Assembly (NCBI RefSeq): GCF_029626235.1
Contig: NZ_JARUBO010000005.1
Span: 4,186,501 to 4,250,500 of the forward strand
From: Micromonospora sp. WMMD1120
Lineage (GTDB): Bacteria > Actinomycetota > Actinomycetes > Mycobacteriales > Micromonosporaceae
Reading direction: 5' to 3'
Length of the DNA: 64,000 bases
In this document: positions 4,432-18,215 of the stretch, piece by piece
Numbering within the stretch: position 1 is the first letter of the stretch
Layout: the number at the start of each line of letters is the position of its first letter
The notes under the pieces: model-generated
The model's input: the letters and a program-made list of their open reading frames with translations, nothing else
Databases searched by the model: none
What the model was told of the DNA's origin: nothing
Program-made: the position numbers and the translations under genes

Positions 4432-5661
4432 TCATGACGGTCGGCCCGGGTCGGCGGCGGAGCCGGCGGCAACGGTGGTCGCCGACGCGCGGACGGCGTC
4501 GAATACCGCGTCCACGACCCGGGCGCGACCCCTGCCGTCGACAGTGGACCAGGCTCGGGCGGCGAGCGTCGCGCGCCGTTGGGGTGCGCTGAGCAGCCCG
4601 TGCAGCGTCCGTGCCGCCGTCGCGCGGGCCGCCCGCCCGGTCACCCCGGGCGCGGCCAGCTCCGGTAGCTCACCGAGGCCGGCGGCCAGACCATGCCGCA
4701 CCACCCGGTGGTACGACTCGCGTTGGTTGTCGACCACGCAGACCAGCGCGGCGGGCGCGCCGAGACAGCAGAGTTCCCAGGTGGACGTGCCGGCTGCGCT
4801 GATCACCAGGTCCGCTTCGGTGATCAGCGCGGGCAGCGAGCTGGTGGGCGGCACCGGTCGGATGATCTGGCCCCGCCCGGGGGTGACGTCCTCGACCTCC
4901 GCCTCGATATCGGGTCGGCCGACGATGACGGTGAGGTCCATCGGGTGGCCGGTGGCGACCAGCACCCGGGTCAGCACCGGGGCCGCGCCGACCGCGTCGG
5001 TGCCGCCGAAGAAGGCCAGCACCCGGGGTCGACCGACCGCGGCGGCGGGCGGCGGGACCGGCGGCCGGGCGCTGATCACCGAGTTCCGCAACAGCGCGTA
5101 CCCGCTGCCGGCGAGCAACCGCCCAGCCAGCCCAGCCCCGGGAGGCAGCTCCGCGCCGGGGGGCAGCCCAGTCCCGGGAGCCAGCCCGACGCCGGGGGGC
5201 AGCCCGACGCCGGGGGGCAGCCCGACGCCGGGGGGCAGCCCGACGCCGGGGGGCAGCCCCGCCCCGGCGGGCGGTTCCGCGCCGAAGTTCTGGTCGAGGT
5301 AGAGGTCGGCGTCCTGGCCCCGGCTGTCCCCGTCGATGATGGCGAGGGTGAACACGCCGGCCGCGCGCAGCGCGCCGGCGCCGGCCGGGTCCAGCTCGTA
5401 GGAGTCGAGCACCACCACGTCCAGCGCGTGCAGCCGGGCCGCGTCGACCAGCGCGGCTGGCGAATCCGGGCCCGGGAAGAGCGGGATGCCCCGGGTGGCC
5501 AGCTCGGCGGTGGCCCAGTCGAGGCGTTCGACGGTGCCGAACACGGCGACGTGGGCGCCGCGGGCGAGCAGCTCCTCGGCGAGCGCCAGGCAGCGCACCA
5601 GGTGGCCGACGCCGCGCCGGGGCCCCGCGTCGCACCGTAACCCGACCCGCAGGGTGTTCAG
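4432..5661 (-). CDS. pseG: UDP-2,4-diacetamido-2,4,6-trideoxy-beta-L-altropyranose hydrolase (PseG)
   Basis: PseG removes UDP to release the 6-deoxy-AltdiNAc sugar, the fourth step of pseudaminic acid synthesis. The protein has a GT-B-like fold. The N-terminal motif GVGHLVRCLALAEEL carries the expected catalytic His, about residue 20, and the C-terminal nucleotide-binding stretch includes ISAAGTSTWELCCLGAP. No ATG, GTG or TTG fits. The best start is CTG at 5661, which overlaps the upstream stop (CTGA) behind GGAGGAG. This gives 409 residues, longer than the usual 280-350. The extra length is an insertion of tandem PPGVGL repeats in the middle, between the two domains. The function call is strong; the start codon is an inference. 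Confidence 0.83.
   Translation of the reverse strand: MNTLRVGLRCDAGPRRGVGHLVRCLALAEELLARGAHVAVFGTVERLDWATAELATRGIPLFPGPDSPAALVDAARLHALDVVVLDSYELDPAGAGALRAAGVFTLAIIDGDSRGQDADLYLDQNFGAEPPAGAGLPPGVGLPPGVGLPPGVGLPPGVGLAPGTGLPPGAELPPGAGLAGRLLAGSGYALLRNSVISARPPVPPPAAAVGRPRVLAFFGGTDAVGAAPVLTRVLVATGHPMDLTVIVGRPDIEAEVEDVTPGRGQIIRPVPPTSSLPALITEADLVISAAGTSTWELCCLGAPAALVCVVDNQRESYHRVVRHGLAAGLGELPELAAPGVTGRAARATAARTLHGLLSAPQRRATLAARAWSTVDGRGRARVVDAVFDAVRASATTVAAGSAADPGRPS
5182..5253 (-). repeat. In-frame 18-base tandem repeat inside pseG
   Basis: Four perfect 18-base units (CAGCCCGACGCCGGGGGG on the + strand) lie back to back, with degenerate units on both sides from about 5135 to 5271. Each unit encodes Pro-Pro-Gly-Val-Gly-Leu in PseG. 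The unit length is a multiple of three, so changes in copy number would not shift the frame. The perfect identity of the central units suggests recent expansion. Confidence 0.9.
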
Positions 5662-6404
5662 GACTCCTCCAACGGCTTCTGGCGTACGCCGGCGTTGAGC
5701 GCGCGTAGCCCGGGCTGGCCGTGCAGCCAGTCGGCGAGCTTGGCCAACGGTACGTTGACGTCGCCGAAGTGGTCGACGATGGCGCTGACCAGCGCCCAGT
5801 CCTGCTCGGTGTCGAGGGTCAGCCGCAGCGCGGACCGGTCCGGGGTGAGCGTCACCCCGAGCACCCGGAACAGCTCCGGATGGGTGTACGCGTACGAGGT
5901 GACGTGCACGCGGTGGTGGCCGGTGGCGAGCCGGCCGAGGGTACGCAGGGTGTCCGCTCGGATGATCTCGACGTCCAGTCCGCGGGGCAGGGTCCGGGCG
6001 ATCGACGTGCTCGCGTAGTCGAGCCCGGGCACCGCCCGGTAGACCGAGGCGACCACCGTGATGATCTCCGGGTCGAGCAGCGGGCAGTCGGCGGTGAACC
6101 GCATGACCGCGTCGCCCGGGTGCGCGTCGAGGGCGCCCACGAACCGGTCCAGCACGTCGTCGATCGGCCCGCGGTGACACGGGACGTCCAACCGTTCGCA
6201 CTCGGTGACCACCGCGTCGTCGACCGCGTCCGTGCTGGTGGCGACCACCAGGTCGGCCAGGACGCCGCTGTCGCGGGCGGCGCGCACCACCCGGCCCAGC
6301 ACGGTACGACCGGCGAGAGGGCGGAGCACCTTGCCGGGCAGTCGGGACGATCCCATCCGGGCCTGCACGATGCCGACGATTCGTGGCGCCGCGTCGCCGG
6401 TCAC
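5658..6404 (-). CDS. Cytidylyltransferase of the SpsF/PseF type, likely CMP-pseudaminic acid synthetase
   Basis: The 248-residue protein belongs to the GT-A-like nucleotidyltransferase group that activates nonulosonic acids. It begins VTGDAAPRIVGIVQARMGSS, with the signature IVQARMGSSRLPGK and later MRFTADCPLLDPEII, typical of SpsF-like cytidylyltransferases. Its position between the other pse genes makes CTP:pseudaminic acid transfer the natural role (PseF step). It is closer to SpsF than to classical NeuA, so the symbol is withheld. The GTG start at 6404 overlaps the stop of the upstream gene (GTGA), and its own stop overlaps the pseG start. Confidence 0.78.
   Translation of the reverse strand: MTGDAAPRIVGIVQARMGSSRLPGKVLRPLAGRTVLGRVVRAARDSGVLADLVVATSTDAVDDAVVTECERLDVPCHRGPIDDVLDRFVGALDAHPGDAVMRFTADCPLLDPEIITVVASVYRAVPGLDYASTSIARTLPRGLDVEIIRADTLRTLGRLATGHHRVHVTSYAYTHPELFRVLGVTLTPDRSALRLTLDTEQDWALVSAIVDHFGDVNVPLAKLADWLHGQPGLRALNAGVRQKPLEES
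5664..5670 (-). promoter_or_regulatory. Ribosome binding site supporting the CTG start of pseG
   Basis: GGAGGAG on the - strand lies just before the CTG at 5661 and inside the last codons of the upstream gene. Because the CTG overlaps the TGA stop of that gene, translation is probably coupled. No alternative ATG, GTG or TTG is found near the conserved N-terminal strand LRVGLRCDAG. Confidence 0.5.
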
Positions 6405-9063: not shown

Positions 9064-10221
9064 TCAGGCGGCGGAGCGCACCGCGCCGAACCGCAGCGCG
9101 GCGGTCAGCGCCTCGATGACGCGGTCCTGGTCGGCGTCGCTGAGCCCCGGGTAGAGCGGCAGCGACAACTGCTGGGAGTAGAACGACTCGGCCACCGGAC
9201 AGGACCCGCGCCGGTAGCCCAGGTCGGCGAAGGCCGGGTGCCAGTGCACCGGGAGGTAGTTGACCTGCACGCCGATGCCGGCCGCCCGCATCCGGTCGTA
9301 CACCTCGCGGCGGCGTCCGTCGAGCACGCGGATCGGGTAGAGGTGCCACGCCGGGTCGGCCCACGACCTGCGGGTGGGCGTCAGCACGCCGTCCAGGTCG
9401 GCCAGCGCCTCGTCGTAGCGGGCGACCAGCGCGGACCGGCGCGCCGTGAACGCGGCGAGCCGGCGCAGTTGGCTGCGGCCCAGGGCGCAGAGCACGTCCG
9501 GCAGCCGGTAGTTCAGCCCGAACTCGTGCACCTCCTGGTGCCAGCCACCCTCGTCGGGGAAGCGCAGCTCGTCGCGGTCGCGGACCACGCCGACGCCCCG
9601 GAACCGGCGGGCCCGCCGCAGGATCTCCGGGTCCGGCGCGGCGACCGCCCCACCCTCCGCGGTGGTCAGGTTCTTGGTGGGGAAGAACGAGAACGTGGTC
9701 AGGTCGGCGAGCGAACCGACCGGCCGACCGCGGTACGTCCCGCCGATCGAGTGCGCCGCGTCGGCGAGCAGCAGCGCGTCGCTGCCGTCGAGCGCCGTGC
9801 GCAGGGCGTCGTAGTCGGCCGGGTGGCCGGCGTAGTCGACGGCGGCCACCACCCTCGTCCGGCTGGTGACCGCGGCGGCGGCCGCCGCCGGGTCGAGACA
9901 GAAGGTCTCGTCGTCGACGTCGGCGAACACTATCGTCGCACCGAGGGCGACAGCGCTGCTGGCGGTCGCCACGAACGTCATCGGCGACACGACGACCTCG
10001 TCACCCGGTCCCACCCCGGCCGCCGCGTAGGCCACGTGCAGCGCGGCGGTGCCGTTGGACACGGCGGCGACACCGACCCCGCCGGTCCACCGGGCCAGGT
10101 CGGCCTCGAAGGCGTCGACCTGCGGGCCGGTGGTGAGCCAGTCGCCGCGCAGCACGTCGGCGACGGCGGCGACGTCGTCCTCGGTGATCGACTGCCGGCC
10201 GTACGGGAGCATCCCCGTCAT
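9064..10221 (-). CDS. pseC: PLP aminotransferase PseC (UDP-4-amino-4,6-dideoxy-AltNAc forming)
   Basis: This DegT/DnrJ/EryC1-family enzyme adds the 4-amino group, the second step of pseudaminic acid synthesis. It has 385 residues. The N-terminus MLPYGRQSITEDDVAAVADVLRGDWLTTGP is the usual sugar aminotransferase opening, and the PLP lysine is Lys183 in SFFPTKNLTTAEGGA. DAAHSIGGTYRG supplies the cofactor-binding Asp. The ATG at 10221 overlaps the pseB stop (ATGA), so the pair is translationally coupled. The specific assignment follows from sequence style and from pseB, pseG, pseH and pseI nearby. Confidence 0.9.
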   Translation of the reverse strand: MTGMLPYGRQSITEDDVAAVADVLRGDWLTTGPQVDAFEADLARWTGGVGVAAVSNGTAALHVAYAAAGVGPGDEVVVSPMTFVATASSAVALGATIVFADVDDETFCLDPAAAAAAVTSRTRVVAAVDYAGHPADYDALRTALDGSDALLLADAAHSIGGTYRGRPVGSLADLTTFSFFPTKNLTTAEGGAVAAPDPEILRRARRFRGVGVVRDRDELRFPDEGGWHQEVHEFGLNYRLPDVLCALGRSQLRRLAAFTARRSALVARYDEALADLDGVLTPTRRSWADPAWHLYPIRVLDGRRREVYDRMRAAGIGVQVNYLPVHWHPAFADLGYRRGSCPVAESFYSQQLSLPLYPGLSDADQDRVIEALTAALRFGAVRSAA

Positions 10222-11201
10222 GCGGTGATGCCGAGCATGTCGCGCAGCTGCTCGACGGTGAGCCACTCGTCGTTGGTGTCCGACTGGTAGGCGAAGCCGT
10301 CCGGGACCGCGTCGCAGTCGGCCGGCGGCTGGTAGCCCCAGGTGGCGATCGTCGGCTGGACGATGAACCGGCCGTCGGCGCGCAGCGTCCGCCGGCTGTC
10401 GTCGGGCGCGATCATCTCCTCGTGCAGCTTCTCGCCGGGCCGGATCCCCACCTCGTGCGTGGTGGCGTCCGGGGCGACGGCCTCGACCAGGTCGAGGATG
10501 CGCATGCTCGGGATGCGCGGCACGAACAACTCGCCACCCTGCATCTGGTCGAACGAGTCCATGACGAACTGCACGGCCTGGTCCAGGGTGATCCAGAAGC
10601 GGGTCATCCGCTTGTCGGTGATCGGCAGGCTCTTGCCCTCGGCGGCCAGTCTGCGGAACAGCGGGACGACCGAGCCGCGGCTGCCCACCACGTTGCCGTA
10701 GCGCACCACGGCGAACCGGGTGGGGTGCTGGGCGGCGTAGTGGTTGGCCGAGACGAACAGCTTGTCGCCGACGAGCTTCGTCGCGCCGTACAGGTTGATC
10801 GGGCTCGACGCCTTGTCGGTGGAGAGCGCGATGACCTTCTTGACGCCGGCCTCGATCGCCGCGTCGACGACGTGCTGGGAGCCGGTGATGTTGGTGGCGA
10901 TGTACTCGGAGGGGTTGTACTCCGCGGTGTCCACCTGCTTGAGCGCCGCGGCGTGCACCACGTGGTCCACGCCGTGCATGGCCCGGGTGAGGCGGTGCCG
11001 GTCCCGGATGTCACCGATGAACCAGCGCAGCCGCGGGTCGTCGCCCAACTGCTGGCGCAGCTCGTACTGCTTGAGCTCGTCGCGGGAGAACACCACCACG
11101 CGGGCGGGGTCGGCCTCGTTGAGGATGTGCCGGAGGAACGTCCTGCCGAAGGAACCAGTTCCCCCGGTGATCAGAATGGACGATCCATTCAACTCACTCA
11201 A
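10218..11201 (-). CDS. pseB: UDP-GlcNAc 4,6-dehydratase (5-inverting) PseB
   Basis: PseB starts the pathway, converting UDP-GlcNAc to the 4-keto-6-deoxy-L-arabino sugar. The 327-residue SDR has the NAD-binding loop ITGGTGSFG, the family stretch FSRDELKQYELRQ, KQVDTAEYNPSEYIATNI, and IALSTDKASSPINLYGATK. These are characteristic of the FlaA1/PseB group rather than of the non-inverting membrane dehydratases. A TTG start at 11201 is chosen because GGGAG lies 8 bases upstream and the NAD loop follows directly; the much longer open frame upstream has no family similarity. It heads a tight - strand operon running pseB, pseC, two unknown genes, pseF-like and pseG. Confidence 0.92.
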   Translation of the reverse strand: MSELNGSSILITGGTGSFGRTFLRHILNEADPARVVVFSRDELKQYELRQQLGDDPRLRWFIGDIRDRHRLTRAMHGVDHVVHAAALKQVDTAEYNPSEYIATNITGSQHVVDAAIEAGVKKVIALSTDKASSPINLYGATKLVGDKLFVSANHYAAQHPTRFAVVRYGNVVGSRGSVVPLFRRLAAEGKSLPITDKRMTRFWITLDQAVQFVMDSFDQMQGGELFVPRIPSMRILDLVEAVAPDATTHEVGIRPGEKLHEEMIAPDDSRRTLRADGRFIVQPTIATWGYQPPADCDAVPDGFAYQSDTNDEWLTVEQLRDMLGITA

Positions 11202-11372
11202 TGTGGTGCTCCCGTGTCCGTGGATGAACGAGCGGCCCTGGGCCGGCCGACCGGGGTGACACGCTAGCCATGGCGGGTTAACGCCCCGGCGCTCGGCGGT
11301 GAACCGCACCCGCTGCTCCCGTGAATGCCGGGCACCGTGCAGGCGAACACTTCGCAACCCCCGGGAGACGGG

Positions 11373-11401: not shown

Positions 11402-11567
11402 GACCGCGCGCGAGCGACCCGGCGGCGTGTGTCAGCCGGTTTCTCGCGTCCACCCGACATCCGCACCGGCTCGGTGCGAGCGGGTCACCCCGAGCGCCGC
11501 CGCCGTGGGCCGACGTGCCCGTCGCGCCCGCGCGGGCCCGGTCCGGACGGCGGTTCTGGAGGCGTTG

Positions 11568-13304
11568 ATGGCATCCGGTAGTGACGTGATCGAACGGCCG
11601 GCGACGGTGCCCGACACCCCGGACCGTATGCCCGCGCGGCGCTGGTTGGTGCCGGCGCTGCTGGTCGTCGGCTGGGCGCTCGGCGTGGCCTGGCGGATGT
11701 GGTTGTCCCGGCACATCGTGCTGCCGATCGCGCACACCGACGAGGACAGCTACCTCAACACCGCCCGTGCGCTGGCCGGTGGGCCGGGTGGCTTCAGCAG
11801 CGAGAACGAGCTGCTGCGCCGGGTGGGCTACCCGATGCTGATCTCGCCGGCGTTCCTCGGGGAGCGGGACTTCGCGGACAGCTACCGGCTCGTTCAACTG
11901 ATCAACGCGATGGTGAACTCGGCGCTGCTGCCGCTGGCGTACCTGCTCGGCCGTCGCCTGTTCACGCTGCGCCGGTCGACGGCGTTGCTCGGCGCGGTCG
12001 TGGCGGCGACCCTGCCGGCCACCGTCTTCTACGCCGGCGTCGCCATGATCGACGCGGTGCTGGCGCCGCTGGTGGTCGCCTGGCTGCTCGCCGTGCACCG
12101 CTGGATCAGCCGCCCCGGCCCGCTCGCCGCCGTCACCGTCGGGCTGCTGGTCGGCGGCTTCCACCTGCTGCACTCGCGTGGCCTGGTGATCGTGGCGGTG
12201 CACGCCGGGCTGGTCCTGCTGCTGTTCGTCCGCCGCCGGATCACTCCCGCCGGGGTGCTCGCGGCGCTGCTGCCGGTGCTCGCCCTGGCGCTGGTCAACG
12301 AGGCCGCCATCCGGCATCTCGGCGACACCGTCTACCTGCTGGGCAACAACCCCGGTGGCGGCACGTTCGCGGCGGTCGCCTCCGCGCACGGCGTGGTCCG
12401 CGCCAGCGCGGCCGTCACCACCCAGCTCTGGTACCTCGTGGTGATCACGTTCGGGCTGGCCGGGGTGGCCTGGGCCGCCGCCGTCCGCGAGCTGTGGCGG
12501 CCACAGCGCGGCGACGCCGTCCGCTGGACGATGGGCGTGGCCCTGGTGGTGACCGTCGGGGTGGCCGCCGGCGCGTCGGTGATCCTGGCCGGCGTCACCG
12601 GCAAGCCGTTGGACGCGATCTACGGCCGCTACGTGCAGATGCTGGCGCCGTTCTGGCTGCTGATCGGGGTGGGCGTGCTGTGTGCCGCGGAGCGTCGGGT
12701 GGTGCTGCGCCGGCTGGCCGTCGCGGCGGCGCTGCTGGTCGCTGGCGGTGCGGTGATCGCCGCCCGGCTCGCCTACGTGGCCGGTCAGGGGCACTCGCTG
12801 CGCTACGGCGGTTTCAGCGCACCGGATCTGATGGTGCTGACCGGCGGCTGGCGGGAACTGCGCCCGGTGGTCGGGACGCTCGTCGGCCTCGCCGGCTGCC
12901 TCCTGCTCCTCGCCGCGGGTTGGGCGCCCCGGCTCCGGCTGCCGATCCTCGGTGTCCTGGTGGCGGTCAACCTGGTCACGATGCAGGTGATCGAGCACCG
13001 CATCGTGCGGCCGTTCGTCGCGAGCGCCACGCCGACGCCCCAGGTGGCCGACCTCGGGGTACGCCCCGGCGAGCGGGTCTGGGCCTCGACCGGGGTGCCC
13101 TACATCCTCCGGTTCAACCTCAGCCACCAGGTGACCTGGGCCGACGTACGGTGGTTCGGCGAGGGGCGGCCGCCGGCCGCGGCGCAGGTGGTGTTCGTCC
13201 GGTGGGCGCCCGGCCAGCCGGACGACTGGGACGGCGCGGCGTACGGCTTCGTCCGGCTCGGTGGCAACCCGGAGCAGCGGTGGGCGGCCTGGCGGCGGTC
13301 CTGA
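11568..13304 (+). CDS. Polytopic membrane glycosyltransferase-like protein (GT-C/GT39 type)
   Basis: The 578-residue protein has about a dozen membrane segments and an early outward loop with acidic residues (IAHTDEDSYLNTARALAGG), the layout of polyprenyl-phosphate-sugar-dependent GT-C transferases. A soluble C-terminal stretch follows the last membrane span (after about residue 480). GGAGG lies 5 bases before the ATG at 11568, so the longer open frame upstream is not used. The gene is divergent from pseB and convergent with pseH, so it sits inside the pseudaminic acid island. Donor and acceptor are unknown. Confidence 0.8.
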   Translation: MASGSDVIERPATVPDTPDRMPARRWLVPALLVVGWALGVAWRMWLSRHIVLPIAHTDEDSYLNTARALAGGPGGFSSENELLRRVGYPMLISPAFLGERDFADSYRLVQLINAMVNSALLPLAYLLGRRLFTLRRSTALLGAVVAATLPATVFYAGVAMIDAVLAPLVVAWLLAVHRWISRPGPLAAVTVGLLVGGFHLLHSRGLVIVAVHAGLVLLLFVRRRITPAGVLAALLPVLALALVNEAAIRHLGDTVYLLGNNPGGGTFAAVASAHGVVRASAAVTTQLWYLVVITFGLAGVAWAAAVRELWRPQRGDAVRWTMGVALVVTVGVAAGASVILAGVTGKPLDAIYGRYVQMLAPFWLLIGVGVLCAAERRVVLRRLAVAAALLVAGGAVIAARLAYVAGQGHSLRYGGFSAPDLMVLTGGWRELRPVVGTLVGLAGCLLLLAAGWAPRLRLPILGVLVAVNLVTMQVIEHRIVRPFVASATPTPQVADLGVRPGERVWASTGVPYILRFNLSHQVTWADVRWFGEGRPPAAAQVVFVRWAPGQPDDWDGAAYGFVRLGGNPEQRWAAWRRS

Positions 13305-13410: not shown

Positions 13411-13920
13411 TCAGCGTTGCCGGCGATCGACGCGGGCCAGGGAAATCGGGATGACGGTGATTTCCCGGCCGTCGGACAGCTCCTGTCGCGGGGTGCCCTC
13501 GACGAATCGGAAACGCCGGTTCATCTGTCGTACGACGGTATTGTGGCCGAGCACCTCGCCGTCGAGCCGGTCCAGGTGCAGCCCGTCGAAGGCGTACTCG
13601 ACGGCCTCCCGCATGACCCCCAGCCAGGCGGGCAGGGTCTCGCCGCGCGCGGCCAGCCCGTCGGCGTCCAGATAGAAGCCCCAGGCACCGGTGCGCGGGC
13701 CGTCCAGCCGCAGGTCGAAGAAGGTGACCACACCGCAGGGCAGGTCGTCGTGGACGTACACCAGCACCCGCCGGGACGGGTCGTCGCGGACCGCCGACCA
13801 CCACCGGGAGTGCTCCTCGGCGGTGATCTCGTGACTGGTCTTGCTGACCTGCCGATTGGTTTCCTGATTACGCCAGGACAACATCAGGTGAACGTCGTCC
13901 ACCGTTGCTTCACGCAACAC
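13411..13920 (-). CDS. pseH: GNAT N-acetyltransferase PseH
   Basis: PseH acetylates the 4-amino group of UDP-4-amino-4,6-dideoxy-AltNAc, the third pathway step. The 169-residue protein opens with REATVDDVHLMLSWRNQETNRQ, the typical start of this acetyltransferase group (ACT-WRN), has VVTFFDLRLDGPRTGAWGFYL in the acetyl-CoA binding core and ends with GHNTVVRQMNRRFRFVEGT. A GTG start at 13920 gives the expected length. It is divergent from the acyl carrier protein gene with a 100-base shared promoter region. Confidence 0.87.
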   Translation of the reverse strand: MLREATVDDVHLMLSWRNQETNRQVSKTSHEITAEEHSRWWSAVRDDPSRRVLVYVHDDLPCGVVTFFDLRLDGPRTGAWGFYLDADGLAARGETLPAWLGVMREAVEYAFDGLHLDRLDGEVLGHNTVVRQMNRRFRFVEGTPRQELSDGREITVIPISLARVDRRQR

Positions 13921-14020: not shown

Positions 14021-14272
14021 ATGAACGAATTGAGTCGCGCGCAGATCCGCGACCTCATGGCTCAGGTGCTGAAGAACCAGGACAAGGAGCTGCCGGCGGA
14101 CGACGCGGCGCAGTTGCGGGAGATCGGCTTCCGGTCGCTCGACTTCTCCGAGTTGGCCCTGCGGGTGGAGGACGAGACGGGGGAGGAGCTCAACTTCGAC
14201 GCCCCCGGCCTGCGCCGCATCGCCACCGTCGGGGACGTCCTCGACTTCCTCGTCGAGCTGCAACACCAGTGA
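14021..14272 (+). CDS. Acyl carrier protein
   Basis: The 83-residue acidic helical protein has the phosphopantetheine attachment motif GFRSLDFSELAL, with Ser39 as the attachment serine in place of the usual DSL setting. It is not the fatty acid synthase carrier, which lies with fab genes, but the first gene of a four-gene unit with an adenylation enzyme, an SDR and a phosphopantetheinyl transferase. Its stop overlaps the next start (GTGA). It probably carries an acyl or aminoacyl group destined for a surface sugar. Confidence 0.88.
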   Translation: MNELSRAQIRDLMAQVLKNQDKELPADDAAQLREIGFRSLDFSELALRVEDETGEELNFDAPGLRRIATVGDVLDFLVELQHQ

Positions 14273-15531
14273 CCGTCGCTGCCCCGCGTCCCGACGCCGT
14301 CGCCCGCCCGGAGCCCGCCGGCGCCGACAACCGGCTCGTGGTGGGCGGCACCGCCATGACCTGGCGTTCGCTGCCGACACCGAGCCTGCCCGGCCCCGCG
14401 GCGGTGCTCGCCCGCTCCGCCGTGCACGCGCTCACCGCCGCGCGGCAGCACGCCGTGTACGGCACCGAGCTGCTGCTCAGCACAGTGAGCCGGGTCGACC
14501 CGGCGATGCGTGCCGAGCTGCTGGAGGCCGGGTTCACCGTCAGCGTCCTCGACGACAACGGCGTGCACCCGAGCGCGCCGGCCCGGCCGCGAGACGCCGA
14601 GCCCGGCCGGCTGTGGCTGCTGACCTCGGGCTCGACCGGGCGTCCCAAGCGGGTCGGGCACACCCTCGACACGCTGACCACGGTGCGGGCCGACCAACCC
14701 GACCGGACCTGGCTGTGCCCGTACGCCCCCGGCACGTACGCCTGGTGGCAGGTGGTCACCCTGTCGCTGACCCAGCCCGGTCAGCACCTGGTCGTGGTGG
14801 AGCCCGACGAGCTGGACGACTGGCCGACGATCGCCGCCGCGCACCGGGTCGACGCCGCCTCGGGCACCCCGACCTTCTGGCGACGCACCCTCTACCGGGA
14901 CGCCGAGGCGCTCGCGCGGGTGCCGCTGCGTCAGGTCACCCTCGGCGGTGAACCGGTGGACCAGGCGATCCTGGACCAGCTCCGGGAGGTCTTCCCGCTG
15001 GCCCGGATCTCCTGGATCTACGCGTCCTCCGAGGTGGGGGCGTCCATTGTGGTGCACGACGGCCGGGCCGGGTTCCCGGTGGCCTGGTTGGACCGGGAGA
15101 CGCCGGGCCGGCCCACGGTCTCCGTCGACGGGGACGAGCTGGTGGTGACCTCTCCCTACCACGGCGCCGGGCTCGGCGGTCCGGTCCGTACCGGGGACCG
15201 GGTGCAGGTGTCCGACGACCGGGTGCTGATCACCGGCCGGCTGGACTCCGACGAGATCAATGTCGGTGGCAGCAAGGTCTCCGCGGGCGTGGTCCGTGGC
15301 GTGCTCGCCGGGCACCCGGCGGTGGCCTGGGCCCGGGTGACCGGGCGTCGCGCCCCGGTGCTCGGTCGGATGGTCGTCGCCGAGGTGGTCCTCGCCGCGT
15401 CCACGGTGGACACCGACGAGGCCGCGCTGGTCCGCTGGTGCGCCGACCGGCTCCCCGAACACGCCGTGCCGCGCCGGATCCGCGTGCTGCCCGACATTCC
15501 CGTCAAGGAGACCCTGAAGAGCGATGTCTGA
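14269..15531 (+). CDS. AMP-forming adenylation enzyme (acyl- or aminoacyl-ACP ligase)
   Basis: This ANL-superfamily enzyme of 420 residues should activate a carboxylic acid as an adenylate and load it on the neighbouring carrier protein. The P-loop-like core motif LLTSGSTGRPKRVGHT is clear, followed by the A5-like SWIYASSEVG, the hinge region VLITGRLDSDEINVGGSKVSAG, and a C-terminal lysine in PVKETLKSDV that fits the catalytic A10 Lys. The N-terminal subdomain is shorter than in acyl-CoA synthetases. Adenylation enzyme plus carrier protein beside pse genes recalls the Campylobacter jejuni flagellin glycosylation locus. Substrate unknown. Confidence 0.85.
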   Translation: MTVAAPRPDAVARPEPAGADNRLVVGGTAMTWRSLPTPSLPGPAAVLARSAVHALTAARQHAVYGTELLLSTVSRVDPAMRAELLEAGFTVSVLDDNGVHPSAPARPRDAEPGRLWLLTSGSTGRPKRVGHTLDTLTTVRADQPDRTWLCPYAPGTYAWWQVVTLSLTQPGQHLVVVEPDELDDWPTIAAAHRVDAASGTPTFWRRTLYRDAEALARVPLRQVTLGGEPVDQAILDQLREVFPLARISWIYASSEVGASIVVHDGRAGFPVAWLDRETPGRPTVSVDGDELVVTSPYHGAGLGGPVRTGDRVQVSDDRVLITGRLDSDEINVGGSKVSAGVVRGVLAGHPAVAWARVTGRRAPVLGRMVVAEVVLAASTVDTDEAALVRWCADRLPEHAVPRRIRVLPDIPVKETLKSDV

Positions 15532-16279
15532 CCCCGCCGACAACCCACTCGTCCCGCCCAGCTCCGTCGTCCTCGTCTCCGGCGGGTCCCGGGGCCTGGG
15601 CCTGGCCATCGTCACCGACCTGCTCGCCGCGGGCGTACGGGTGGCCGCGTTCGCCCGCACCGTCACCCCGGAGCTGGCGAAGCTCGCGGCCGAGCATCCC
15701 GACCGGACGCACGTCGGCGCGGTAAACGTGACCGACCTGCCGGCCGCGCAGAGTTTCGTACGCGAGGTCGAGCAGCGCCTCGGCCCGATCGACGGCATCG
15801 TCAACAACGCCGCCATGGGGCAGGACTCCCTGCACGCGCACACCGCCACCGACGACCTCGCGCGGATCATCGAGACCAACCTGACGGCCCCGTTGCAGCT
15901 GACCCGGCTGGTGATCCGCCGGATGCTCGCCAAGGGGCTGCGCGGACGGATCGTCAACATCACCTCGATCTGCGGGCAGCGTGGCTTCCCGGGCCTGGTC
16001 GCGTACTCGGCCACCAAGGGCGGCATGGACGCCGCCACCCGCTCACTGGCCCGGGAGTTGGGCGGCCGGATGCTCGTCAACTCGGTCGCCCCCGGCTTCT
16101 TCGCCTCGGAGATGTCCGCGGTGCTCGGTCCGACCCAGCTCGACCAGATCGTCCGCCGCACCCCGACCGGTCACCTCACCGAGCCGGAGGAGGTCACTCC
16201 GGTGGTGCGGATGCTGCTGCGCGAGCACACCAACATCAACGGCCAGGTCATCGTGGTGGACGGTGCCGCCTCCGTCTGA
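15524..16279 (+). CDS. Short-chain dehydrogenase/reductase (FabG/PtmA-like)
   Basis: The 251-residue classical SDR has the cofactor loop VSGGSRGLGLAI, the NNA motif in DGIVNNAAMGQ, Ser in NITSICGQ and the catalytic Tyr-x-x-x-Lys in AYSATKGG. The C-terminus INGQVIVVDGAASV is the standard SDR ending. It could reduce a carrier-bound 3-oxo group or oxidise a sugar; in Campylobacter an SDR (PtmA) is also part of a nonulosonic acid locus. The ATG at 15524 lies inside the last codons of the ligase gene (8-base overlap). Confidence 0.85.
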   Translation: MSDPADNPLVPPSSVVLVSGGSRGLGLAIVTDLLAAGVRVAAFARTVTPELAKLAAEHPDRTHVGAVNVTDLPAAQSFVREVEQRLGPIDGIVNNAAMGQDSLHAHTATDDLARIIETNLTAPLQLTRLVIRRMLAKGLRGRIVNITSICGQRGFPGLVAYSATKGGMDAATRSLARELGGRMLVNSVAPGFFASEMSAVLGPTQLDQIVRRTPTGHLTEPEEVTPVVRMLLREHTNINGQVIVVDGAASV

Positions 16280-16739
16280 CCTCGCCCAGCTGGCCCGGCC
16301 CCGTCCGGTGCCGGGCCAGCTGGCCGTCGCCGAGCGGCACCTGCGCGTCGGCGTACCCGCCGACCTGACCGACGCGACCACCCGCAGCCATCTCGACGAT
16401 GGCCGCTGCGTCGGCTGGTACGGTCCACCGACACCCGGGTGGCGGGTGGCGATCGACGCGGAACGCGCCGACGCGCCGGTGCCGCCGGCGCTGGCCCGCC
16501 GGTTCGGCGTGCCGGACTTCTGGGCGCGGTGGACCCGCGCCGAGTGCCACTGCAAGCTGACCGACGTGCCGGTGGCGGTGTGGTGGCGTCGCCACGGCCT
16601 GAGCACGCCGGCCGACGGCGCGACGGTCTGGCGCACCCTCACCGTGGCCGACCTGGTGGTAACGGTCGGCTTCGCCCCCGAGCCCGCGCCGCCCCTCAAG
16701 CAACAGGACCCGCGTAAAGCCGTCGCCAGCGGTCGGTAG
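16263..16739 (+). CDS. Compact 4'-phosphopantetheinyl transferase-like protein
   Basis: The 158-residue protein shows two signature patches of the phosphopantetheinyl transferase superfamily in order: VAIDAERAD (Asp65 and Glu67, matching the Mg-binding DxE) and FWARWTRAECHCK (Trp90, Glu94 and Lys98, matching WTxKExxxK). The first half of a Sfp-type enzyme is reduced. The GTG start at 16263 overlaps the SDR gene by 17 bases, so it is the last gene of the carrier unit and is well placed to convert the carrier protein to its holo form. The assignment rests on these two motifs and context. Confidence 0.7.
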   Translation: MPPPSDLAQLARPRPVPGQLAVAERHLRVGVPADLTDATTRSHLDDGRCVGWYGPPTPGWRVAIDAERADAPVPPALARRFGVPDFWARWTRAECHCKLTDVPVAVWWRRHGLSTPADGATVWRTLTVADLVVTVGFAPEPAPPLKQQDPRKAVASGR

Positions 16740-17109: not shown

Positions 17110-18162
17110 TCAGATCAGGTTCCAGCTCAGCGGGGTGCCGCGCGGGACGTCGGTGGCGAAGGTGCGGCCGAGCACCCGGTCGATCTCCACGGGGGCCAGC
17201 CCACCGGCCGGACGGATCGAGCGGACGTTCTCCGCCGTCACCGGATCACCGGCCTTGACGTCCTCGACCACGAACAGCGAACGGCGGAACCGCAGCCCTT
17301 CCCGTTCGGCGGGGGTCGGGCCGATCGCGGTGCCGCCCAGTGCCTCGTAGGCGCGGCCGGACTCGGCGACCAGGGCCGTCAGCTCCTCCGGGTTCAGGGA
17401 GAAGTCCGAGTCCACACCGCCGTCGGCGCGGTCCAGCGTCACGTGCTTCTCGATGAAGCACGCGCCGAGCGCGACCGAGGCGACCGCCACCCCGATGCCG
17501 GGCGTGTGGTCGGAGAGCCCGACCGGCACGTCGAAGGCGCCGGCCAGCACCGGCAGCCGGCGCAGGTTGCTGTCCGCCGACGGCGCCGGATAGGACGCGG
17601 TGCAGGCGAGCAGGACGATGCCGGCCGCGCCACCGTCGCGGGCGGTGCGCACCGCGGCGTCGATCTCGGCGACCGTCGCCATTCCGGTGGAGATCACCAT
17701 CGGCTTGCCGGTGCTCGCCACGAGCCGGATCAGCGGAAGGTCGACCAGCTCCGACGAAGCGATCTTGTACGCGGGCGCGTCCAGCGACTCCAGCAGCTCC
17801 ACCGCCGTCGCGTCGAACGGTGACGAGAAGACGGTCAGGCCACGCTCGCAGGCCCGCTCGAAGATCGGGGCGTGCCACTCGTACGGGGTGTGCGCGCGCT
17901 CGTAGAGGCGGTACAGGTTCTCCCCGCCCCACAGCTCGTGGCCCCCGGAGATGCGGAACGCCGGGGTGTCGACGTCGATGGTGATGGTGTCCGGCCGGTA
18001 CGTCTGGAGCTTCAGCGCGTGCGCGCCGCTCTCCGCCACCGCGTCGACGATGGCCAGCGCCCGGTTCAGGTCGCCGTTGTGGTTGCCGGACATCTCGGCG
18101 ACCACGAAGGGTCGTGCCCCGGCACCGACCGCGTGCGGTCCGATGGTGATTGTCGCCGTCAT
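17110..18162 (-). CDS. pseI: Pseudaminic acid synthase (PseI), NeuB family
   Basis: PseI condenses 6-deoxy-AltdiNAc with phosphoenolpyruvate to give pseudaminic acid. The 350-residue protein has the NeuB TIM barrel with VVAEMSGNHNGDLNRA, LKLQTYRPDTITID, the metal and PEP region YKIASSELVDLPLI and GLSDHTPGIGVAVASVALGA with FIEKHVTLDR, and ends in an antifreeze-like SAF domain (RSLFVVEDVKAGDPVTAENVRSIRPAGG). The early GNHNGD and the overall pattern are those of PseI rather than of NeuB sialate synthase. The ATG at 18162 is used; the upstream gene (GT2) ends 53 bases away on the same strand. Confidence 0.9.
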   Translation of the reverse strand: MTATITIGPHAVGAGARPFVVAEMSGNHNGDLNRALAIVDAVAESGAHALKLQTYRPDTITIDVDTPAFRISGGHELWGGENLYRLYERAHTPYEWHAPIFERACERGLTVFSSPFDATAVELLESLDAPAYKIASSELVDLPLIRLVASTGKPMVISTGMATVAEIDAAVRTARDGGAAGIVLLACTASYPAPSADSNLRRLPVLAGAFDVPVGLSDHTPGIGVAVASVALGACFIEKHVTLDRADGGVDSDFSLNPEELTALVAESGRAYEALGGTAIGPTPAEREGLRFRRSLFVVEDVKAGDPVTAENVRSIRPAGGLAPVEIDRVLGRTFATDVPRGTPLSWNLI

Positions 18163-18215
18163 TCCGACCTCTGCTCCTGTTGCGGTGGTGCTGTCCTGTG
18201 GTGTGGTGCTGAAGG

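Follow-up and report, generated by a model that had tools for sequence, protein, structure and literature searches.

A compact acyl carrier module that accompanies a distinct PseH in actinobacterial pseudaminic acid loci, probably serving N-acylation of the sugar

Four overlapping genes for an acyl carrier protein (ACP), an adenylating ligase, a short-chain dehydrogenase/reductase (SDR) and a short protein resembling phosphopantetheinyl transferases (PPTases) lie among the pseudaminic acid (pse) genes of Micromonospora sp. WMMD1120, and raise the question of what a carrier system of its own does in a sugar pathway. The analysis was made on a window of 64,000 nucleotides (contig NZ_JARUBO010000005.1, positions 4,186,501 to 4,250,500; positions below are those of the window) from this 7.15 Mb genome. 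An earlier note on this DNA had proposed that the four genes make an N-acyl or N-aminoacyl group and place it on the nonulosonic acid or its precursor. The genes belong to a compact set found inside the pse genes of many soil actinobacteria, whose probable task is to charge a carrier of its own with a small acid and to pass this on to the sugar by way of a matching sugar acyltransferase. They are read here, with a probability of roughly 0.65, as part of a cassette of five genes for N-acylation in the pseudaminic acid pathway. The four overlapping genes were recognized correctly in the earlier note, as judged from the open reading frames (ORFs), their Pfam matches and the conservation of the overlaps in 20 loci, but the fifth member, a divergent pseH-type gene upstream of the ACP gene with which the unit starts, had been overlooked. 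The five genes are:

13411..13920, minus strand: pseH-type GNAT acyltransferase of the module type, with Asn at the general-acid position (TIGR03585, PDB 4xpk, tree, residues)
14021..14272, plus strand: stand-alone ACP (Pfam PP-binding, attachment serine)
14269..15531, plus strand: short adenylate-forming acid:carrier ligase, 420 amino acids (Pfam AMP-binding, AMP-binding_C)
15524..16279, plus strand: FabG-like SDR, probably a 3-oxoacyl-ACP reductase (Pfam adh_short, NCBIfam TIGR01830)
16263..16739, plus strand: short PPTase-like protein, 158 amino acids, GTG start (profile comparison, predicted fold, residues)

The last four, called the module below, are ORFs on the plus strand that overlap by 4 nt (ACP/ligase), 8 nt (ligase/SDR) and 17 nt (SDR/PPTase-like), and their G+C content at the third codon position (0.90–0.94) is that of coding sequence in this DNA. 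The ACP was matched by Pfam PP-binding with 27.5 bits (cut-off 20.8) and carries the attachment serine in the motif GFRSLDF, which was present in 52/52 ACPs checked. The ligase has both the ANL fold and its C-terminal domain (AMP-binding 63.4 bits, AMP-binding_C 46.1 bits), and its predicted fold resembles enzymes that load discrete carriers, with DltA, MenE and benzoate-CoA ligase tied. For the SDR (adh_short, 152 bits) the best NCBIfam profile was TIGR01830 3oxo_ACP_reduc, with 171.1 bits under a cut-off of 297.75; each residue of the tetrad N119, S148, Y161 and K165 occurred in at least 97% of 53 sequences.

Among 101 Micromonospora genomes the ligase (at least 74% identity) was found in 42, PseI in 58 and both in 41. 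The sole genome with ligase and without PseI (G052) has its locus at the end of a 9.4 kb contig, and three further genomes held only ligase cousins of 35–38% identity. Locus comparison within the genus covered 20 module loci out of 42 and every one of the 17 loci that have PseI but no ligase. The order PseH, ACP, ligase, SDR, PPTase-like was the same in 20/20 module loci, as were the overlaps of 4 nt between ACP and ligase and of 8 nt between ligase and SDR; the 17 nt overlap of SDR and PPTase-like gene was kept in 15/20. Because these overlap lengths recur, the four-gene arrangement is not due to chance. In 16 of the 17 loci without ligase an intact pseH of another type was present.

The unit was also found beyond the genus. 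A family-level search detected the ligase in 56/300 genomes and 4/44 genera; the five family loci outside Micromonospora were all pse loci, two with the PPTase-like gene and three, from a genus here called g12, without it. In a phylum-level draw 3/396 genomes had the ligase, one of them from the Dermacoccus family. Among 186 genomes of this last family, 32 contained the ligase, 39 PseI and 31 both, and in the odd genome (G813) PseI is cut by the contig end. Seven of the eight genomes with PseI and without ligase have a more distant PseI (55–58% against 69% or more). All 32 ligase loci carry ACP, ligase, SDR and PPTase-like gene on one strand, with a divergent pseH in 31/32. A scan of named genomes considered the best 80 of 154 relatives; it overlaps the other samples, so that the sets are not independent, and some of the misses fall at the end of a contig or flank. 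Within 6 kb, ACP was found in 80, SDR in 80, PseH in 75, the PPTase-like gene in 68 and PseI in 66 of these best 80, and in 64 of the 75 PseH lies within 400 nt of ACP. They include Dermacoccus, Flexivirga, Knoellia, Intrasporangium, Terrabacter, Propionicicella, Raineyella, Nocardioides, Marmoricola, Kribbella, Actinoplanes, Hamadaea and Actinophytocola. PseH-ACP-ligase-SDR, mostly with the PPTase-like gene, is thus recurrent in the pse loci of Micromonospora, Actinoplanes, Hamadaea, Kribbella, Nocardioides, Dermacoccus, Knoellia and others. The tie of the module to pse loci, for which the earlier note had asked, holds in two families of actinobacteria and also in named genera outside these; it was not the case that the unit was absent from other pse loci and common near unrelated genes. 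In Kribbella loci (L237, L244 and others) about 4 kb with intervening genes separates ACP from pseH and pseI, and the PPTase-like gene is mostly absent.

The gene that changes together with the module is pseH. The module PseH scored 75.7 bits with the NCBIfam PseH profile TIGR03585, under its cut-off of 93.1, and aligned to the Campylobacter jejuni PseH structure 4xpk with an E value of 6e-7; its role in the pathway is suggested by its place in the pse locus. Within the genus, the PseHs of module loci were 75–97% identical to the window copy and those of non-module loci 45–51%, while for PseI the values were 83–95% and 77–85%. Of the 42 rows in a PseH tree, the 23 with the full module were split off by one branch (100/95) and these together with g12 (26 rows) by another (100/99), and a quick tree with further genera separated 34 module from 16 standard PseHs (SH-aLRT 100). 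The PseI tree (35 rows, without seven module rows that had too few columns) placed Actinoplanes, Hamadaea and g12 outside the genus, which held module loci and loci with another carrier set, described below, alike. Since the PseH tree joins module loci across genera and the PseI tree does not, PseH tracks the module across genera.

The distinction is visible in single residues. Out of 132 module PseH rows, 106 were distinct by their last 150 residues, and Asn was found at residue 134 in 105/105 scorable ones (L251 ends before this residue), against His in 16/16 standard PseHs of the genus. Residue 131 is Arg in 129/131 module rows and Leu in 16/16 standard ones. In the Dermacoccus family, six control loci that lack the module have a GNAT protein with Phe at the position of residue 134, as read by eye. 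PseH acetylates the C4 amino group, and Tyr138 is the proposed general acid of the Helicobacter pylori enzyme (PMC4363471). By our mapping through C. jejuni PseH, residue 134 would fall on Tyr138, and Glu122 and Asn127 on Glu126 and Asn131. Since the PseH beside the module changes with it, acylation of the nonulosonic acid precursor, as proposed in the earlier note, is the role to which the locus points.

A route can be drawn from these parts. The ligase would activate a small free acid and attach it to the phosphopantetheine arm of the dedicated ACP, which the PPTase-like protein would most likely convert to the holo form, or help a housekeeping PPTase to convert. The FabG-like SDR would reduce the carrier-bound acyl group, in the simplest case acetoacetyl to 3-hydroxybutyryl. 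The special PseH would then take the acyl group from ACP and place it on the amino group at C4, the future N7, of UDP-4-amino-4,6-dideoxy-AltNAc, supplied by PseB and PseC, after which PseG, PseI and PseF would yield pseudaminic acid with an unusual acyl group at N7. The finished sugar probably enters a cell-wall glycopolymer. As to the acyl group, an exchange of psaD/E for psaG/H in Acinetobacter has been taken to predict Pse5Ac7Hb (PMC6586298), and pseudaminic acid with N7-glyceroyl is known from Tannerella (PMC9912281). Given these precedents, a FabG-like SDR and the lack of any visible ketosynthase among the module genes, 3-hydroxybutyryl is the simplest guess, and only a guess. The aminoacyl alternative of the earlier note fared less well: in a profile alignment with the beta-aminoacyl-ACP ligase IdnL1, the four-residue stretch fdfs, which we take to carry the amino-binding Asp, is missing from the ligase. 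Aminoacyl loading of the Campylobacter type, considered as a candidate, is disfavoured on this same presumed role of the stretch. Tentatively, the cassette may hold a PseH subclass with Asn for the general-acid Tyr that uses a dedicated carrier instead of coenzyme A (CoA), together with a compact single-carrier PPTase class that has the Mg triad without the KE lysine or the full first lobe, in a self-contained actinobacterial route to N7-acyl groups.

Several observations weigh against the N-acylation cassette, and several of them concern the fourth protein. It had no match in Pfam (ACPS profile included, E up to 0.1) or NCBIfam, its family profile had none among PDB sequences up to E 10, and Foldseek with the predicted fold gave none at E up to 0.001. 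Profile comparison by HHalign with an Sfp-type profile gave 86.6%, which drops to 42.5% with a deeper alignment. PPTases of group I have about 120 amino acids and those of group II over 220 (PMC4103896), and with 158 the protein falls short of the two pseudosymmetric lobes of group II. The Mg-binding triad of Sfp is D107, E109 and E151 (PMC4103896). In an alignment of 55 PPTase-like sequences from two families (in L152 and L159, family f6, the reading frames ran into neighbours and were trimmed to the PPTase-like part), D64, E66 and E93, the presumed Mg triad, and K97, W51 and W89 were invariant. Sfp-type PPTases carry the motif KE..xK; here the Glu and the last Lys were found in 55/55 and the first (KE) Lys in 0/55, and His42 in only 26/55. 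The gene is missing beside the module in 3/3 g12 loci, 11/14 Kribbella loci and one Frankiaceae metagenome-assembled genome, all of which retain ACP, ligase and SDR.

These losses, the short length and the absent lysine, together with five other PF01648 matches in the genome, would fit a fourth gene that is no working PPTase, the ACP being activated by housekeeping PPTases and the short protein being a scaffold, a regulator or a relic. This is the alternative that survives best, although we consider it doubtful: six residues are invariant across two families, and in a structure comparison of the predicted fold (VIA) rows 1–37 of 50 were PPTases, with alignments spanning 101–121 residues of Sfp-type chains of 197–283 residues. 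Conversion of the module ACP to its holo form by this protein is plausible.

The remaining points against the cassette concern the rest of the locus. The Asn that replaces Tyr could also point to a different chemistry or to an enzyme of low activity. Module loci of the genus form one clade in the PseI tree as well as in the PseH tree, so that the 42 genomes may represent one event, and Fisher p values ignore kinship. A large membrane protein gene (11421–13304, plus strand; hydrophobic stretches, no Pfam match) was present in 19/20 module loci and in 0/16 other intact loci of the genus, and as it also separates module loci from the rest, more than acylation may differ between them. Ligase-SDR cousin pairs of 33–42% identity lie away from pse genes in 5/101 genomes (L101–L105); in L101 they adjoin an ACP, a condensation-like protein and an ABC transporter protein, which suggests that an ACP-ligase-SDR trio may also serve natural products.

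If the acyl-ACP is accepted elsewhere than at N7, it could serve an O-acyl group, the N5 group or the polymer itself, as in the Dlt system, where a ligase-loaded carrier supplies the alanine for teichoic acid. The DltA-like fold would suit such a role, but DltA is tied with two other enzymes in that comparison, the ligase lacks the stretch that aligns with the amino-binding region in IdnL1, an Acyl_transf_3 gene occurs also in loci without the module, and the change of pseH with the module is left unexplained; we regard this alternative as unlikely.

Sister loci of the genus offer a further comparison. In the 16 intact non-module loci, which have the standard pseH between a GT2 gene and pseI, the interval between pseI and pseB holds an ACP-SDR-ligase-LuxE-LuxC set (Lux-type) in nine (L037–L040, L044, L046, L048, L049, L051), a lone Lux-type ACP in three (L042, L043, L050), either a relic or working alone, and nothing in four. 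L052 is a degenerate pse locus with short remnants of GT2, pseI and pseB only. Module and Lux-type set occurred together in 0/36 loci, and tblastn found no LuxE or LuxC match in 20 module loci. The SDRs of the two sets are 34% identical, and the ligases and ACPs gave no meaningful BLAST alignment. The likeness to flagellin glycosylation genes claimed in the earlier note thus extends to the SDR and fails for ligase and ACP; it is a loose one, judged here on the Lux-type set of sister loci and not on Campylobacter genes. That both sets make the same product, with the PseH difference only a matter of history, would suit their similar slot, their mutual exclusion and their related SDRs but is very unlikely, as the unalignable ligases and ACPs speak against it and loci with a Lux-type set have the same standard PseH type as lone-ACP and empty loci, so that the Lux set works without a special PseH.

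The surroundings of the cassette are those of a pse locus, with pseB, pseC and the pseF/pseG-like genes beyond pseH and pseI on the opposite side of the module:

17110..18168, minus strand: pseI, pseudaminic acid synthase (TIGR03586, 456.9 bits, cut-off 340.25)
10218..11213, minus strand: pseB, start not fixed (TIGR03589, 497.3 bits, cut-off 407.75)
9064..10221, minus strand: pseC (TIGR03588, 400.9 bits, just under the cut-off of 423.5)
5658..6404, minus strand: probable pseF-type cytidylyltransferase, suggested by its place (TIGR03584 weak, 28.9 bits, cut-off 205.7)
4432..5625, minus strand: pseG-like gene, start not fixed (TIGR03590, 118 bits, under the cut-off of 153.55)

The pseG-like gene holds an 18-base tandem repeat of 6.8 copies (5125–5272) that gives a Pro-Gly-rich repeat in the protein. 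One query protein of the locus, labelled GT39, had no Pfam match. Next in line are genes of wall-polymer type, a TagF-like gene (Pfam Glyphos_transf), a fusion resembling ribitol-5-phosphate cytidylyltransferase (169.6 bits against a cut-off of 166) and an ATPase similar to TagH (170.2 bits, under its cut-off of 320). Micromonospora is non-motile, and no flagellin genes were seen at the locus, where no search was aimed at flagellin or flagellar genes.

One PseH residue and an adjoining carrier module could together serve as a genomic marker for pseudaminic acids with unusual N-acyl groups in non-flagellin, Gram-positive settings. The cassette offers a tractable case of how small acyl groups reach nonulosonic acids, a step that is only putative in Lux-type islands too, and strains of one genus with the module, with the Lux-type set and with neither make the prediction directly testable. 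Should the fourth protein work as a PPTase, it would have a shorter active core than Sfp, and it is possibly a new enzyme class.

Among the literature matches listed, no paper joined phosphopantetheinyl and pseudaminic, and those on Micromonospora and pseudaminic acid dealt with other matters; the paper matched for Kribbella and pseudaminic acid does not mention that genus in the text available. Known kin are the flagellin-island sets of ACP, FabG, ligase, LuxE and LuxC and the acylation-gene swaps in Pse5Ac7Hb loci of Acinetobacter. The Shewanella sfm cluster was considered as kin and set aside, since in the text available (PMC3765264) only a 3-oxoacyl reductase is in common. With the PseH family (TIGR03585; H. 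pylori and C. jejuni structures) the module PseH shares the GNAT class, alignment to 4xpk and the equivalents of Glu126 and Asn131, but it lies under the family cut-off, has Asn at the Tyr138 position and accompanies an ACP module. The fourth protein has the Mg triad and second-motif lysine of the group II (Sfp/PptT) and group I (AcpS) PPTases and a predicted fold that may resemble theirs, and differs by a size between the groups, the missing KE lysine and the absence of a Pfam match. DltA/DltC, IdnL1 and HitB are likewise systems of a stand-alone adenylating enzyme and a discrete carrier protein, but the module ligase has a shorter N-terminal part and lacks the stretch of the amino-group pocket. 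In the Acinetobacter psa loci, too, a gene exchange in a pse-type cluster is taken to switch the N7 group from acetyl to 3-hydroxybutanoyl; in the text available of PMC6586298 carrier, ligase and PPTase are unnamed and the products of the swapped genes unstated. Aeromonas group II flagellin islands encode an ACP, a 3-oxoacyl-ACP reductase, an AMP-dependent synthetase, LuxE and LuxC (PMC7874193), and enterobacterial flagellin islands carry FAS-like genes (PMC4875605). These islands, where the role of such genes is only putative, share with the module a carrier, an SDR and an AMP ligase located within or next to pse genes; the module is set apart from them by its gene order, the absence of LuxE and LuxC, the additional PPTase-like gene and the special PseH.

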